IMG/VR virus record: IMGVR_UViG_3300043431_000079 | Coordinates: 1-25,550 of that record | Direction: 5' to 3' (one strand) | DNA length: 25,550 nt | Source: a virus | Part shown: positions 8,816 through 13,393 of the stretch, in pieces | How positions within the stretch are numbered: the first letter of the stretch is position 1 | How the letters are laid out: each line of letters opens with the position of its first letter | Notes under the pieces: model-generated | What the model was told of the DNA's origin: nothing | Seen by the model: only the letters and a program-made list of their open reading frames with translations | The model's database searches: none | Made by a program: the position numbers and the translations under genes

Positions 8816-9364
8816 ATGCTGATCGAGTGCGGATTCGTCCGAGCTGTAGCACCTGATGGCAGTGAATACACGTTCACGCCATCGCTGGCGCGCATCGCCA
8901 CGCTTGGCAATCCGCACGAGATAGTCGGGTTGTACGCAGCCCTACACGGCCAACACGCCGAGCGCGAGGCGGGCTACATCCTAGCTTGTCTGTGCGACCA
9001 GGATGACCCGACGCCGCTGATCGGATGGATCTACAGCGACGGGCTGCGCCGTCCCGGCACCATGCCTGCGTCTGAGCAGGTGGTGATTGCCAGGCACCTG
9101 ATGCACCACGGCATCGTCGGCAAAGCCAAGCCAAGCAAGGGTGGCGGGCAATACTCGGACCGCTTCGACGCTGCCGAGTACATCGCTGCCGCGCGGGTTC
9201 ATTTGGGCCTGTCCAGTGGTGACGCCGAGGCGCTGAGCATGACCGAGTTTCAAATGATGCTCGCCATGAAATATCCCGAGTCGCAGGAAAAGCAGATCCC
9301 GAGCCGGGACGAATACCGCAAGGCCATGCAGGCGGCACAAATGAAGGAGCAGCGCAATGGCTGA
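8816..9364 (+). CDS. Tail assembly chaperone-like protein (DUF6246-like)
   Basis: This 182-residue protein starts directly after the tube gene stop. The pattern 'LIE.G.VR......YTFTPSLARIATLGNPHEIVGLYA' followed by repeated helices, 'LIGWIYSDGLRRPGTMPASEQVVIARHLMHHGIVG' and a Lys/Gln-rich end (EYRKAMQAAQMKEQRNG) matches proteins that I know as DUF6246, always found between the tube and tape measure genes. Many siphoviruses place a chaperone that folds the tape measure here, often made by a frameshift. I see no second frame continuing it, so a single product is likely. Its end overlaps the tape measure start by 8 bases. Confidence 0.65.
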   Translation: MLIECGFVRAVAPDGSEYTFTPSLARIATLGNPHEIVGLYAALHGQHAEREAGYILACLCDQDDPTPLIGWIYSDGLRRPGTMPASEQVVIARHLMHHGIVGKAKPSKGGGQYSDRFDAAEYIAAARVHLGLSSGDAEALSMTEFQMMLAMKYPESQEKQIPSRDEYRKAMQAAQMKEQRNG

Positions 9365-12044
9365 GAAGGTAGGGGAAATCTATTACGAGGTGACGCTTGA
9401 CACCTCGAAAGCCCTTGAGCAGCAAAGGGAGCTCGCCCGCCAGCTTGGCGAGATGCCATCAACGCTCACGCAATCGGCGCAAGCGGCAAAGAGCTATGCT
9501 ACCGCAACCGAGGTGGCGGCAAAAGCGGCGACAGAGGCGGCGCAGGCCATGCAGTCTGAGGCAAAAGCCGCATTGGAAGCTGCAAAATCAGCCCAGGAAA
9601 AAGCGCAAGCGGCAATATCTGATGCACAAGCCACGCAAGCGCAAGCGCAGGCGACAAAGCAATCAAGCGCCGAGCAGAGGTCGGCGGCATCCAGTACGGC
9701 AGAAGCCACAAAAGCAACGCAGCAGTCCACCAAGGCTACGCGCGAACACGCTGCAGCAACCGATGGGGCGGCGAAATCATCTGGCGAGCTGAAGCAGGCA
9801 ACCCGTCAGCTTCCGGCACAGTTCACCGACATTTTCACGAGTATTCAGGCTGGGCAAGACCCGCTGACCGTCTTGATCCAGCAGGGCGGACAGCTTAAGG
9901 ACCAGTTCGGCGGCGTGGGTGCGGCAACGCGCGCCATGGGTGGTTACATCCTGGGTCTAATCAACCCGCTGACAGTGGCGGCAGCGGCTGTTGCCACGTT
10001 TGTGTATGGCCTAGTTGCTGGGCAAAAAGAGGCGCAAAACCTCAATTCCGCTCTGATCATGACCGGCCAGCAGTCTGGCGTGACGACTGATCAGCTATCC
10101 ACCATGGCGGCATCCATGGACGACATGGCGGGGGTGACGCAAGCCAAGGCCACCGAGGCGCTGCTGACATTCATCAATGCCGGCATTCGCGGCGAGGAGT
10201 CTCTGGGAAAGTTTACCGCTGCCGCTATCCAGCTCGAAAAGGCCGGCGGCGCATCGGTCGAGGAGACCGCCAAGAAGTTCAAGGAGCTAGAGCGCGAGCC
10301 ATTCAAGGCGGCGGTCAAGCTGGACGAGGCAATCAATTTCCTTGACCAGTCCACCAAGCAGCACATCAAAACGCTTGAAGAGCAGGGCCGCATGACTGAT
10401 GCGGCGCGCGTGGCGCAGGAGGCATATGCTGACGCCATCGCAAACCGCATCCCGAAAATCACGGAAAATCTAGGGTTGATTGAGCGTGCCTGGCGCGGCA
10501 TTGTCAGCACAGCTAAAGAGGCCGGCGACGCCCTATTGAGCATTGGTCGCACCGACACCAACACCAGCAAGCTTGATGAGCTGCAAAAGAAGCTGGCATC
10601 GTTTGAGCAAAAGTACCCCAACGCGCCGACTGATTCTGTCATGGGTCGGGCAAAGGAGCGCGTCAAGCTAGAGATTCAAGGGCTTGAGCAGCAGATGAAG
10701 GCCGGCGCCGACATGGCGGCCCAGCAGGCCACAGAGGCCAGCAAGAAGCGCGCACGCGACAAAGCCGACGCTGATGCAGCCAAGTACCTGACAGATCAAC
10801 AGAAGCTGCAATTGCAGATTGCTAAGGAGCTTGGCACGCTGCGCGAGGCTGGCGCATCTCCGTCTGAGTTGAAGGCGCGCGAGGCTGCGATTCGTGCGGA
10901 CTTTGCCAAGAAACAACCGAAGGGCGAGAAGCCTTTTGACTCTTCTGGATACATGTCCGGCTTGTCGCAGAAGGCGGCGAGCGAATGGGATCGAGTCGGC
11001 ATCATTGAGGCTGAGGCTCTGCGCCAGCACAAGGAATTGCTGACCAAGGGTAAGCTGACGCAAGCCGAGTACGAGGACGGTAGATCATTGATCATGCAGG
11101 CCGGCGCATTGTCTCGACAGAAGATTCAGCAAGATGGCCTCGACAAGCTGATACAGGACATCCTGACAGAGGAGCGAATCACCGACGAGGCTGCGGCGCG
11201 CAAACGCCAAAAAGCCGAGCAAGCAGCCAAGGCCGAGCAAGCCGCGCGCCAACTGATCGCCGACGCCGCTGGTGATCCGGTCGAGAAGATTAGGCTTGAG
11301 GAAGAAGCCAAGCTGGCAGCGCAGCAGGCGGCGTATGACCAGCAGTTGATCAGCTTAGAGACTTTCGAGCAAGCCAAGGCCGCTATCATCGCCAAGTCGG
11401 CAGCGGATCAGCAAGCGATTCAAGACGCCAACAACGTCATGTCAGTGCAGCTCATGGGCAAGATGACTGATGACGTGCTAGGCATTTTGCAGAAGTCAGG
11501 CAAGGAGCGAACTGCTCTGGGCAAGGCGCTGTTCTTGGCGACAAAAGCGCTTGCAGTGGCCGAGATCATCATGAACACGGAGGTTGCAGCCACGAAGGCA
11601 GGCGCCCAGCTTGGGGTGTTTGGCATCCCAATGGCGACCATGATCCGCGCCCAAGGCTACGCCAGCGCGGGTTTGGTGGCAGGAATGGCTGTCGCCGATG
11701 TGGCTGGCCGAGCCTATGGCGGCCCCGTGAGCGCAGACAGCCTCTACCGCGTCAACGAGCGCGGCGCGCCTGAGATGTACACGGCCAGCAACGGAAAGCA
11801 ATACATGCTTCCGACTGCAAACGGCAACGTGACAGCCGCCAACAAGATCGGAGGCGCCACTGACGTGCAGTGGAACATCGTGATCAACAACACGGCGACA
11901 GGAACGATGGCAAGCGCATCGGTTGATCAGCAGTCTCGGACGGTGCAAATCGCCGTCACTGAAGTGGCCCAGCAGATCAGCAACAACAGCGGGCCGGTCT
12001 GGTCGGCTATGCGGGGATCGACGAATATCCGGTCGGCGCTGTGA
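9357..12044 (+). CDS. Tail length tape measure protein
   Basis: This is the largest gene of the window: 895 residues, preceded by AAGGAG. Residues about 15-140 form a long Ala/Gln/Lys-rich coiled coil. Residues about 145-400 match the prophage tape measure domain (TMP_2, lambda gpH-like): LPAQFTDIFTSIQAGQDPLTVLIQQGGQLKDQFGG in outline, a hydrophobic helix (GLINPLTVAAAAVATFVYGL, about 205-225) and the DMAGVTQAKATEALLTFI region. A second coiled coil lies at about 440-690, with a second hydrophobic stretch (about 735-775). The protein spans the tube, sets tail length and is ejected with DNA. Repetitive Ala-rich DNA, seen at 9480-9780, comes from the coiled coil. A terminator follows immediately. 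Confidence 0.9.
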   Translation: MAEKVGEIYYEVTLDTSKALEQQRELARQLGEMPSTLTQSAQAAKSYATATEVAAKAATEAAQAMQSEAKAALEAAKSAQEKAQAAISDAQATQAQAQATKQSSAEQRSAASSTAEATKATQQSTKATREHAAATDGAAKSSGELKQATRQLPAQFTDIFTSIQAGQDPLTVLIQQGGQLKDQFGGVGAATRAMGGYILGLINPLTVAAAAVATFVYGLVAGQKEAQNLNSALIMTGQQSGVTTDQLSTMAASMDDMAGVTQAKATEALLTFINAGIRGEESLGKFTAAAIQLEKAGGASVEETAKKFKELEREPFKAAVKLDEAINFLDQSTKQHIKTLEEQGRMTDAARVAQEAYADAIANRIPKITENLGLIERAWRGIVSTAKEAGDALLSIGRTDTNTSKLDELQKKLASFEQKYPNAPTDSVMGRAKERVKLEIQGLEQQMKAGADMAAQQATEASKKRARDKADADAAKYLTDQQKLQLQIAKELGTLREAGASPSELKAREAAIRADFAKKQPKGEKPFDSSGYMSGLSQKAASEWDRVGIIEAEALRQHKELLTKGKLTQAEYEDGRSLIMQAGALSRQKIQQDGLDKLIQDILTEERITDEAAARKRQKAEQAAKAEQAARQLIADAAGDPVEKIRLEEEAKLAAQQAAYDQQLISLETFEQAKAAIIAKSAADQQAIQDANNVMSVQLMGKMTDDVLGILQKSGKERTALGKALFLATKALAVAEIIMNTEVAATKAGAQLGVFGIPMATMIRAQGYASAGLVAGMAVADVAGRAYGGPVSADSLYRVNERGAPEMYTASNGKQYMLPTANGNVTAANKIGGATDVQWNIVINNTATGTMASASVDQQSRTVQIAVTEVAQQISNNSGPVWSAMRGSTNIRSAL

Positions 12045-12049
12045 TGAAA

Positions 12050-12078
12050 AAAGCCCGCATGTAGCGGGCTTTGTTGTT
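12050..12078 (+). terminator. Rho-independent terminator after the tape measure gene
   Basis: AAAGCCCGC (12050-12058) pairs with GCGGGCTTT (12064-12072) around ATGTA and is followed by TTTGTTGTT. It is nearly the same module as at 6922-6950, differing mainly in the loop. An A run at 12047-12052 lets it also work on the minus strand for the converging small genes. Confidence 0.85.
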
Positions 12079-12121
12079 GGTGATGCGTAGTTTGACTACA
12101 GCGCAATGATGGCCAGGAATA

Positions 12122-12217
12122 TCAGCCATCCCAGCCATCTTTCCCGTTTGCCGCGAGGTATGTGGCGGCGATAATTGAAAGGATGGTGACTGCGGCCCTG
12201 ATGTATTCTTGATTCAT
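12122..12217 (-). CDS. Small membrane peptide, 31 residues
   Basis: The reading frame from ATG 12217 gives MNQEYIRAAVTILSIIAATY followed by a short polar tail, 31 residues in all. One hydrophobic segment (about residues 8-22) would cross the membrane. It begins 20 bases after the stop of the 91-residue gene upstream on the same strand, as expected for the last gene of the minus-strand cassette. The ribosome site is weak (AGGGT about 10 bases upstream). An overlapping frame is also open and hydrophobic at its end but has no start codon. The function is unknown and translation is uncertain. Confidence 0.35.
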   Translation of the reverse strand: MNQEYIRAAVTILSIIAATYLAANGKDGWDG

Positions 12218-12237
12218 TTCATGACCCTGGTGTTGGT

Positions 12238-12513
12238 TTACTTAGTGTACAGCGGAATCAGGTTATCAGTCACGCAAAAACCCTCGTCAACGGCATCCTG
12301 GGTCCATGTGTCGCCGTTCTCGGGGTCATACAAGAGGTATGGGGTGGGGTCGGGTTGCTCCATCGCAGCGCGAAGCGCATCACGCGCAGCGTCAAATTGA
12401 TGCACCCTTGACTGTTTCATGTCAAGCAAGCGCGAGTCGGTCGCCATGTCATCCATCGCATCCATGACCTCTTGCAGGACCGCAGTGGAAATGATGGTTA
12501 TTATGGTTTTCAT
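12238..12513 (-). CDS. Hypothetical phage protein, 91 residues
   Basis: Starting from ATG 12513 the product is MKTIITIISTAVLQEVMDAMDD followed by an acidic helical region and a C-terminal segment DPTPYLLYDPENGDTWTQDAVDEGFCV. A TTG at 12522 would add three residues and overlap the upstream stop by 4 bases; ATG seems more likely. No domain is recognised. It is the middle gene of a three-gene minus-strand cassette inserted between the tape measure and the tail tip genes. A role in host interaction or superinfection is typical of such inserted genes, but nothing in the sequence demonstrates it. Confidence 0.55.
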   Translation of the reverse strand: MKTIITIISTAVLQEVMDAMDDMATDSRLLDMKQSRVHQFDAARDALRAAMEQPDPTPYLLYDPENGDTWTQDAVDEGFCVTDNLIPLYTK

Positions 12514-12518
12514 GGTTT

Positions 12519-12731
12519 TCAATCAACACAATTACCGTTTTCGTCAACTTCGAAGTAACCCCAATCGGCTTGCTGGAAGGCAACATCGCGCATAGCTTCG
12601 TCACGCTCTTCCTCGGTCATACCATCCCACACAGCTTCTTCGATTCCAAGCTCCTCTAGGGAGGTCGTGGTTTCGTACTTGCTGTGGATGTTGGCCCCGC
12701 TGTCGTTAAAAACTTTGAATCTGCGACTCAT
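12519..12731 (-). CDS. Small acidic phage protein (DUF7167-like)
   Basis: This 70-residue protein starts at ATG 12731 with a good GGAG 9 bases upstream, right after the terminator-like hairpin of the leader RNA. Its sequence (MSRRFKVFNDSGANIHSKY in part, then LEELGIEEAVWDGMTEEERDEAM and QADWGYFEVDEN) follows the pattern of a family of small phage proteins that I recall as DUF7167, of unknown role. A longer version starting at 12881 would run through the promoter and the whole leader RNA and is rejected. Expression is probably controlled by the kissing-loop leader: read-through of the U tract at 12753-12744 is needed to reach its ribosome site. Confidence 0.65.
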   Translation of the reverse strand: MSRRFKVFNDSGANIHSKYETTTSLEELGIEEAVWDGMTEEERDEAMRDVAFQQADWGYFEVDENGNCVD

Positions 12732-12743
12732 TTTGTGTGCTCC

Positions 12744-12793
12744 AAAAGAAAAACCGCCACGCCATGCAGGTACGAGCTGCACAGTGTGGCGGT
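12744..12793 (-). terminator. Terminator or attenuator formed by hairpin 2 of the leader RNA
   Basis: On minus, the 15-pair hairpin (12793 to 12753, with a 2-by-2 internal loop) is followed by TTTTTCTTTT. The GGAG ribosome site of the gene at 12731 follows directly, so termination here would cut off that gene. Confidence 0.7.
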
Positions 12794-12846
12794 AGGCCGT
12801 TGGGCTTTGATGTGTAAACGTCTCGTACACGTAACACCAAAGCCTG
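12744..12846 (-). ncRNA. Candidate kissing-loop RNA (two hairpins with complementary 7-nt loops)
   Basis: From a predicted start near 12846 the minus-strand transcript begins with hairpin 1: outer stem 12838-12844 with 12803-12809 (7 bp), ACAC/GTGT (12834-12837 with 12812-12815), ACGT/ACGT (12829-12832 with 12818-12821) and a 7-nt loop at 12828-12822. After a 9-base linker comes hairpin 2: 12786-12793 with 12753-12760 (8 bp), then 12777-12783 with 12763-12769 (7 bp), and a 7-nt loop at 12776-12770. In RNA sense the loops read GTACGAG and CTCGTAC, exact reverse complements. Hairpin 2 is followed by TTTTTCTTTT. A 17-base-spaced promoter lies just upstream. It may be a free small RNA, an attenuator of the gene at 12731, or both. 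Seven-nt fully paired loops recall ColE1 RNAI/RNAII kissing, and paired loops on one molecule recall phi29 packaging RNA; these are analogies only. Confidence 0.65.
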
Positions 12847-12852
12847 AGCGCA

Positions 12853-12881
12853 AGTATACACGCACCACGCCAGCCATGCAA
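12853..12881 (-). promoter_or_regulatory. Sigma70-type promoter of the kissing-loop RNA
   Basis: On minus, TTGCAT (12881-12876) and TATACT (12858-12853) are separated by 17 bases. The predicted start is near 12846, two bases before the first stem strand. The -10 is strong and the -35 weak. The bases before TATACT (GGTGCG) resemble those before the TATACT of the 1316 RNA promoter. Confidence 0.55.
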
Positions 12882-12904
12882 GGGCGTGAGTTCAATTCAC
12901 ACCC

Positions 12905-12922
12905 CTCCCTAGCATAGCCACC
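12905..12922 (+). promoter_or_regulatory. Start-associated element, copy 3 (TAGCAT 7 bases before ATG)
   Basis: CTCCCTAGCATAGCC at 12905-12919 matches copies 1 and 2. TAGCAT (12910-12915) is followed by exactly 7 bases and ATG 12923, again without a Shine-Dalgarno sequence. It restarts expression of tail-tip genes after the minus-strand cassette. Confidence 0.6.
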
Positions 12923-13393
12923 ATGCCAGAAGCCTACCCGCTCCACCTACGCACGATCCAGCAGGCGTCAAAGTCCCGCAGCCAGCCTGCAGCGTTCCGC
13001 ATGGCCGAGCCACGCCGGGGGTATGGCTATGCACAGGCAGTCGGCACCGACACTCCGATTTTCTGGGATGTGCAGTTCAGGTTCACGACCGCCGAGGCGG
13101 CAGCGTTCCAGCTCTGGTTCACGCAGAAGATCGCGCGCGGGGTCGATGAGTTCACTCTCCCGATCCGCACCGAGTTCGGGCTGGTGACGCACACATGCAG
13201 ATTCTTGCCTGACAGCCTGCTGAATACCAGCGAGGACGGGCTTACATGGGTCTACAGCGCACAGATCATGGCGCGGGCGCAGGTCATACCAACCAGCTAC
13301 AGCGACGCGGCTGATTTGATTCTGGCGCTGCCAGATTGGCCGCAGTGGGCTGGGCTGCTAGATGAAACCGTCACGCAGGAGCTGCCGACATAA
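12923..13393 (+). CDS. Putative distal tail / minor tail protein
   Basis: The 156-residue protein is the first gene of the tail tip block. Segments such as DTPIFWDVQFRFTTAEAAAFQLWFTQKIARG, DEFTLPIRTEFG and LTWVYSAQIMARAQV fit small proteins that attach at the lower end of the tail tube in siphoviruses of proteobacteria (lambda gpM-like position, after the tape measure). No enzyme motif is visible. Its stop and the next start overlap as TAATG. The start at ATG 12923 is fixed by the repeated element just upstream. The role is inferred mainly from gene order. Confidence 0.6.
   Translation: MPEAYPLHLRTIQQASKSRSQPAAFRMAEPRRGYGYAQAVGTDTPIFWDVQFRFTTAEAAAFQLWFTQKIARGVDEFTLPIRTEFGLVTHTCRFLPDSLLNTSEDGLTWVYSAQIMARAQVIPTSYSDAADLILALPDWPQWAGLLDETVTQELPT

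Follow-up and report, generated by a model that had tools for sequence, protein, structure and literature searches.

In the ColE1 RNAI/RNAII system, 7-nt loops pair over their full length, and their letters change together to yield orthogonal specificities. The put RNA of phage HK022 lets RNA polymerase pass terminators without a protein. Measuring ~70 nt, put forms two stem-loops after a phage promoter and is present in two copies per genome (PMC9378689). The C4 antisense RNA of phages P1 and P7 uses its loops to target the ant mRNA (PMC12197685). Attenuator leaders and riboswitches place a folded leader and a terminator between promoter and gene and can include a loop-loop contact, such as L2-L3 of the purine riboswitch.

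Here, we analyze a predicted RNA on the minus strand of a metagenomic phage contig of 25.5 kb that carries tail genes (the whole stretch of 25,550 nt, hereafter ‘the window’), in which two neighboring hairpins, H1 and H2, present the complementary loops L1 and L2. As in ColE1, the loops have 7 nt and pair over their whole length. RNAI and RNAII, however, are transcribed antisense to each other from one DNA stretch and pair through their stems too, whereas here both loops belong to one RNA, complementarity is confined to them, the stems of H1 and H2 being unrelated to each other, and H2 is a putative terminator before a gene; H1 and H2 are not a sense/antisense pair with complementary stems. 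With put, the RNA shares its approximate place after the promoter, its two stem-loops and, in three genomes, its occurrence in two copies (PMC9378689). Like C4, it is a phage RNA that heads operons, with an antirepressor following in some copies, but its loops target each other rather than an ant mRNA. Complementary loops on one molecule, which could join molecules into rings, recall the phi29 packaging RNA (pRNA), but the twin-hairpin RNA precedes accessory genes and ends in a predicted terminator. Promoter, folded leader, terminator, gene and loop-loop contact are also the elements of attenuators and riboswitches, but here the terminator’s own loop would kiss, no conserved ligand-binding core is evident and the genes behind are unrelated.

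Rfam cmscan returned no match at the gathering thresholds, at E ≤ 10 for the window or at E ≤ 1 for the other tested members; the ColE1 RNAI/RNAII model matched neither the window nor the tested members, and the C4 and phi29 pRNA models gave no match; the RNA is thus unrelated to RNAI and pRNA at the level of Rfam families. Nothing comparable, whether a kissing or a leader RNA, is mentioned in a 2025 review on the small RNAs of phages (PMC12197685), and no kissing-loop phage leader was found in the open-licence literature. On the basis of that literature, the family is likely, though not proven, to be new: neither leader attenuators nor kissing loops are novel in themselves, and as far as we found it is their combination, the family and its portability that are apparently new.

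A predicted twin-hairpin RNA antisense to the tail genes

The RNA lies in a minus-strand insert within the plus-strand tail block, comprising a promoter-like site, the two hairpins, a U-tract, a GGAG and a 70-aa DUF7167 gene. The same insert is found in a relative, IMG/VR 3300016482_000022 (L003). The features of the window, some with their conservation in L003 or in the 11 family members described below, are as follows.

9357–12044, plus strand: tape measure gene, tail block flank of the insert
12238–12513, minus strand: second ORF of the insert, 91 aa; its start alone is common to L003
12519–12731, minus strand: DUF7167 small gene, 70 aa (PF23768, E 3e-6; phrog_8831, E 1e-17), with ATG at 12731 and Shine-Dalgarno GGAG at 12743–12740
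12744–12846, minus strand: twin-hairpin leader RNA, ~103 nt, with homologues by covariance model
12744–12752, minus strand: U-tract UUUUCUUUU of the predicted intrinsic terminator; a U-tract is present in 11/11 members
12753–12793, minus strand: hairpin H2, ~16 bp with one mismatch and a 7-nt loop; the putative terminator stem
12770–12776, minus strand: kissing loop L2, CUCGUAC, perfect reverse complement of L1
12794–12802, minus strand: linker CAACGGCCU, able to adopt a small alternative hairpin together with the 3′ base of H1
12803–12844, minus strand: hairpin H1, 11 bp, 1x4 asymmetric internal loop, 4 bp and a 7-nt loop; anatomy kept in all members
12822–12828, minus strand: kissing loop L1, GUACGAG, covarying with L2 in homologues
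12853–12881, minus strand: sigma70-like promoter TTGCAT-N17-TATACT (–35-like TTGCAT 12881–12876, 17-nt spacer, TATACT 12858–12853), position kept in L003
12882–12904, minus strand: 23-bp palindrome GGGTGTGA-ATTGAAC-TCACGCCC, whose end lies immediately before the –35 hexamer
12923–13393, plus strand: tail gene, other flank of the insert

The two side-by-side hairpins with perfectly reverse-complementary 7-nt loops, first noticed in a sequence-only reading, are thus confirmed between 12846 and 12744, as is the T-rich tract after H2. The minus strand is taken to be the RNA strand because the U-tract exists there only and because the H1 loop is lost when L003 is read on the plus strand. Folding of the 103-nt RNA yielded –45.0 kcal/mol, compared with –28.5 ± 3.1 kcal/mol for shuffled versions (z –5.3), and both L1 and L2 were open hairpin loops in minimum-energy folds computed without the kiss. 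H2 resembles an intrinsic terminator and stands directly before the GGAG and ATG of the DUF7167 gene. It was absent from the output of a strict terminator scanner, since its stem is long and interrupted.

The promoter with a 17-base spacer proposed by the same reading is present but imperfect, matching the consensus at 4/6 and 5/6 letters. Its L003 counterpart at the same place, TTGCAA-N17-TATACT, was listed by a strict promoter scanner, the window promoter was not. Transcription likely starts at ~12846. The palindrome is kept in L003, as GGGTGTGA-ATTGAAC-TCACACCC, and is a possible operator. It is also faintly similar to a tRNA T-arm (BLAST E 2, tRNA-Cys genes of Brevundimonas phages).

Between tape measure and tail gene (window 12045–12922) lies a hot spot at which accessory genes insert: inserts in relatives (L023, L032, L164, L176, L181, L189) hold lipoprotein-like, HNH-like and other genes, mostly antisense, and most relatives of the neighboring tail gene have no insert there. 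The second insert gene (window 12238–12513, minus strand; L003 from 6219) begins with a shared MKTII and continues as different proteins, as if the remainder had been exchanged downstream of the shared start; the protein of L003 appears secreted. Elsewhere in the window, an ORF for a C-5 cytosine methyltransferase (PF00145; 6955–8343, minus strand) lies within the tail gene block, with parts showing 75–90% DNA identity to methyltransferases of Edwardsiella, Bordetella, Burkholderia and Xanthomonas phages. The 11-mer CTCCCTAGCAT occurs at 1598, 7979, 12905 and 16675, always on the plus strand, where 0.27 occurrences would be expected even allowing one mismatch, and recurs in many related phages. 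It is followed in most cases by an ATG 5–9 nt later with no Shine-Dalgarno sequence between, and may be a phage –10 element (TAGCAT) serving leaderless mRNAs or else mark start sites in an unusual way.

Loop complementarity beyond chance

When twin hairpins with complementary loops were sought across the window, the pair at 12744–12846 ranked first by a wide margin, and none of 60 dinucleotide shuffles reached its score. As a control, we collected distinct terminator-like hairpins with 6–7-nt loops from 1.8 Mb of fetched sequence. In 9/443, an upstream loop was complementary over its full length, and eight of these nine were family members, leaving one case among the remaining 435. This ninth case (L063) was rejected as a member, being an unrelated inverted repeat. 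Because the fetched DNA is enriched for relatives, the control tests specificity, not abundance.

Comparison of the window with L003, whose loops are GUGCAAG and CUUGCAC, revealed differences at 4/14 loop sites, two per loop, with both pairs kept perfect through two double changes. The chance of both loops staying complementary given four changes in 14 sites is 0.2–0.9%. Two further double changes fall in H2, bringing the total to four, and H2 also differs by one whole inserted base pair. Divergence amounts to 17% in H1 and 29% in H2 but only 4% in the gene behind, and the 9-nt linker is unchanged. The hairpins thus change fast, and the changes are mostly structure-keeping.

As a broader test, a covariance model (R1) was built from the window and L003, with nested stems only and the loop-loop pairing left out. 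Its matches were one copy in 3300020176_000028 (E 4e-16), one in Aeromonas phage AsC4_1 (E 7e-4) and, within 3300016482_000022 itself, an additional copy (E 6e-16). BLAST from the AsC4_1 copy led to Avpx2, Avpd1, 4_L372X, phiA005, 4_4512, 2_D05, 4_D05 and vB_AsaM-56/51/56, and covariance models located two copies each in vB_AsaM-56 and 4_D05. The model R2 recovered a copy outside its training set (4_D05 12995–13095, E 4e-12).

Segment-wise comparison revealed perfect Watson-Crick loop complementarity in 11/11 distinct members, drawn from a modest number of lineages (one set of Aeromonas phages plus a few phages from metagenomes). There are seven loop codes, of which five have 7 nt and two have 6 nt: besides that of L003, GUACCAG/CUGGUAC, GGACAAG/CUUGUCC, GAGCAAG/CUUGCUC, GUACGAG/CUCGUAC, GUAGAG/CUCUAC and GUGGAG/CUCCAC. 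One code, GUACGAG/CUCGUAC, is common to two different phages, namely the window and vB_AsaM-56 (copy 2). Pairs were counted on a hand segmentation checked letter by letter against the loci; a MAFFT alignment (A5) misplaced the 6-nt loops and was left out of the counts. In the kiss columns, 98.6% of positions are paired versus 25–46% in slid versions, and their covariation score of 0.377, against 0.129 in shuffled alignments, was reached in 0/500 shuffles. The stems covary as well, having changed on both sides in 24/33 pairs, in an alignment itself fitted to the stems. Mean loop duplex energies were –8.3 kcal/mol for a member’s own loops and –1.9 for cross pairs.

Complementarity is therefore kept by compensatory change, as in a kissing-loop RNA, and its retention in relatives, the failure of which the sequence-only reading had named as refuting, holds throughout the family. 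Because relatives differ in their loop letters yet always match, we consider it almost certain, from these comparisons, that the loop pairing is real and under selection.

Other searches added no members. DNA-pattern searches of viral contigs returned known members or chance matches only, and a match (L091) to the one pattern searched in bacterial genome contigs was rejected as chance. BLAST of the window unit against phages and plasmids gave no match, and an R2 scan of eight other phages nothing convincing. The weak R2 matches L256, L257 and L259 lacked family-type twin loops on inspection, and phage blackswan219-6 shares the gene start but not the RNA.

Common anatomy and the genes behind the RNA

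Each of the 11 members presents the same order of promoter-like site, H1, linker, H2 with U-tract, and ATG. H1 consists of 11 bp (some with one mismatch), an internal loop of 0–1 nt on the 5′ and 3–4 nt on the 3′ side, 4 bp and a 6–7-nt loop, and throughout the family the hinge sits exactly 4 bp beneath L1. The linker measures 9–13 nt and can form an alternative hairpin with the 3′ base of H1 in 11/11 members (–3.2 to –8.9 kcal/mol); the foot of H1 therefore has two possible partners. H2 has ~15–18 bp with small defects.

Promoter-like hexamers with 16–18-nt spacers stand upstream of all 11, clear in seven and weak in four; against shuffled upstream sequences, 7/11 gave p < 0.02, one 0.07 and three 0.12–0.22. 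With this weakness in four, promoter, intrinsic terminator and Shine-Dalgarno sequence plus ORF lie on the same strand in 11/11, as in an attenuator. The claim of a self-contained transcription unit of ~103 nt thus stands as to the predicted succession of promoter, RNA and terminator but is too narrow: because every copy lies 17–21 nt before an ATG, the RNA is better read as a leader.

The following genes, unrelated to one another, are found behind the leader.

DUF7167: the window and L003
Bro-N antirepressor: directly behind the leader in L194
phrog_5086: L195
HNH endonuclease phrog_953: vB_AsaM-56 copy 2, 4_D05 copy 2 and 4_L372X
phrog_1273: vB_AsaM-56 copy 1 and 4_D05 copy 1
phrog_343: 4_4512
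Endonuclease-like zinc-finger protein: Avpx2
Unknown gene: AsC4_1

An antirepressor gene also lies one gene further downstream of the leader in vB_AsaM-56. Conversely, many relatives of the DUF7167 gene are without the twin-hairpin RNA (L004–L020, plus AsC4_1 at the homologous place). The AsC4_1 gene (PV158446.1 13921–14109; locus L092 3501–3689) is antisense in the tail block and has its own near-consensus promoter, TTGACA-N17-TATCTT, with no twin-hairpin leader. Since the DUF7167 gene also occurs without the RNA, leader and gene are exchangeable modules. In vB_AsaM-56 (JQ177063.1 13307–13460, locus L205), gp36 as annotated overlaps the RNA, and gp37 is annotated to begin inside H2; the true gp37 start is probably the ATG after the U-tract.

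Possible modes of action

Sequence comparison establishes anatomy, loop complementarity, covariation and position before a gene. Given the order of promoter, hairpin, terminator, Shine-Dalgarno sequence and ATG in every copy, the simplest reading is a cis-acting attenuator leader of a phage accessory gene whose loops kiss within one molecule, to which we give an even chance of being right. The switching of a terminator directly before the small gene, suggested by the sequence-only reading, has thereby become the leading idea. The leader would probably control the switching-on of the gene behind it. A sigma70-type promoter would start the RNA at the base of H1, which would fold first and present L1. 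RNA polymerase would then make H2, a terminator whose loop L2 is exactly complementary to L1. Transcripts stopping there would yield the ~100-nt RNA, those reading through would express the gene, and contact between L1 and L2 would set the balance in one direction or the other. We favor a kiss inside a single nascent RNA, made by way of the H1 hinge, that would alter the speed or quality of H2 closing; contacting the terminator’s own loop can affect the timing or stability of H2. According to a simple rod estimate, the linker reaches across a straight kiss with both stems complete if H1 bends by ~78–145°, a fold-back that the hinge would permit.

An intermolecular kiss is geometrically easier, as no fold-back is required, and the terminated ~100-nt RNA could instead be a working product that acts in trans, which we regard as possible yet fairly unlikely. 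Two molecules might form a closed dimer through L1-L2 and L2-L1, whose antiparallel arrangement needs no bend, or a free copy might kiss the nascent leader, so that the amount of RNA, reflecting gene dose or a superinfecting phage, would feed back on the gene, with the loop codes as identity tags. Self-recognition is favored by the three genomes with two copies (3300016482_000022, vB_AsaM-56 and 4_D05): the codes differ within each, and pairing between copies is weak (about –0.6 to –3.5 kcal/mol versus –6 to –8.9 for own loops). The faster divergence of the hairpins than of the gene behind is likewise as expected of changing tags. Drift, however, also yields differing codes in two copies, the window and copy 2 of vB_AsaM-56 have an identical code despite belonging to different phages, and a free RNA has no need of a conserved H1 hinge or of tight placement before an ATG.

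Another reading, which strikes us as doubtful, holds that RNA polymerase, a host factor or a phage antiterminator recognizes the kissing fold, in the manner of HK022 put or lambda nut, such that H2 and later terminators are passed. The location matches put, that is, two stem-loops in the first ~100 nt after a phage promoter (PMC9378689), with the early promoters here being promoter-like sites, and the conserved linker and its alternative hairpin could be a binding site. Yet put is not reported to kiss, nor is its second hairpin described as a terminator (PMC9378689), the best R2 match in the HK022 genome was unconvincing (E 0.7) and lay away from the early promoters, and the phages revealed no regulator gene in common.

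That the element is simply a terminator or insulator preceding a moron-type gene, with loop complementarity as a by-product of inverted-repeat DNA, is very improbable: H2 does resemble a good intrinsic terminator and insulation of accessory genes is common, but the loops covary in 11/11 members, such upstream partners are nearly absent from other terminator-like hairpins (1/435) and the anatomy of H1 is conserved.

Discussion

Our analysis adds a structured RNA family absent from Rfam and present in named Aeromonas phages, and the comparative evidence supports a contact between the loop of an upstream hairpin and that of a terminator. More speculatively, and in our judgment unlikely as a whole, the RNA may be a mobile, gene-independent cassette in which each copy’s loop pair fits itself alone, sensing its own dose by kissing within one phage or between co-infecting phages and regulating its accessory gene without cross-talk. 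If the attenuator switch works as proposed, accessory genes such as antirepressors, homing-type endonucleases and small unknowns would be movable together with ready-made RNA control. The family is also a naturally occurring collection of orthogonal kissing codes whose output would be a terminator.
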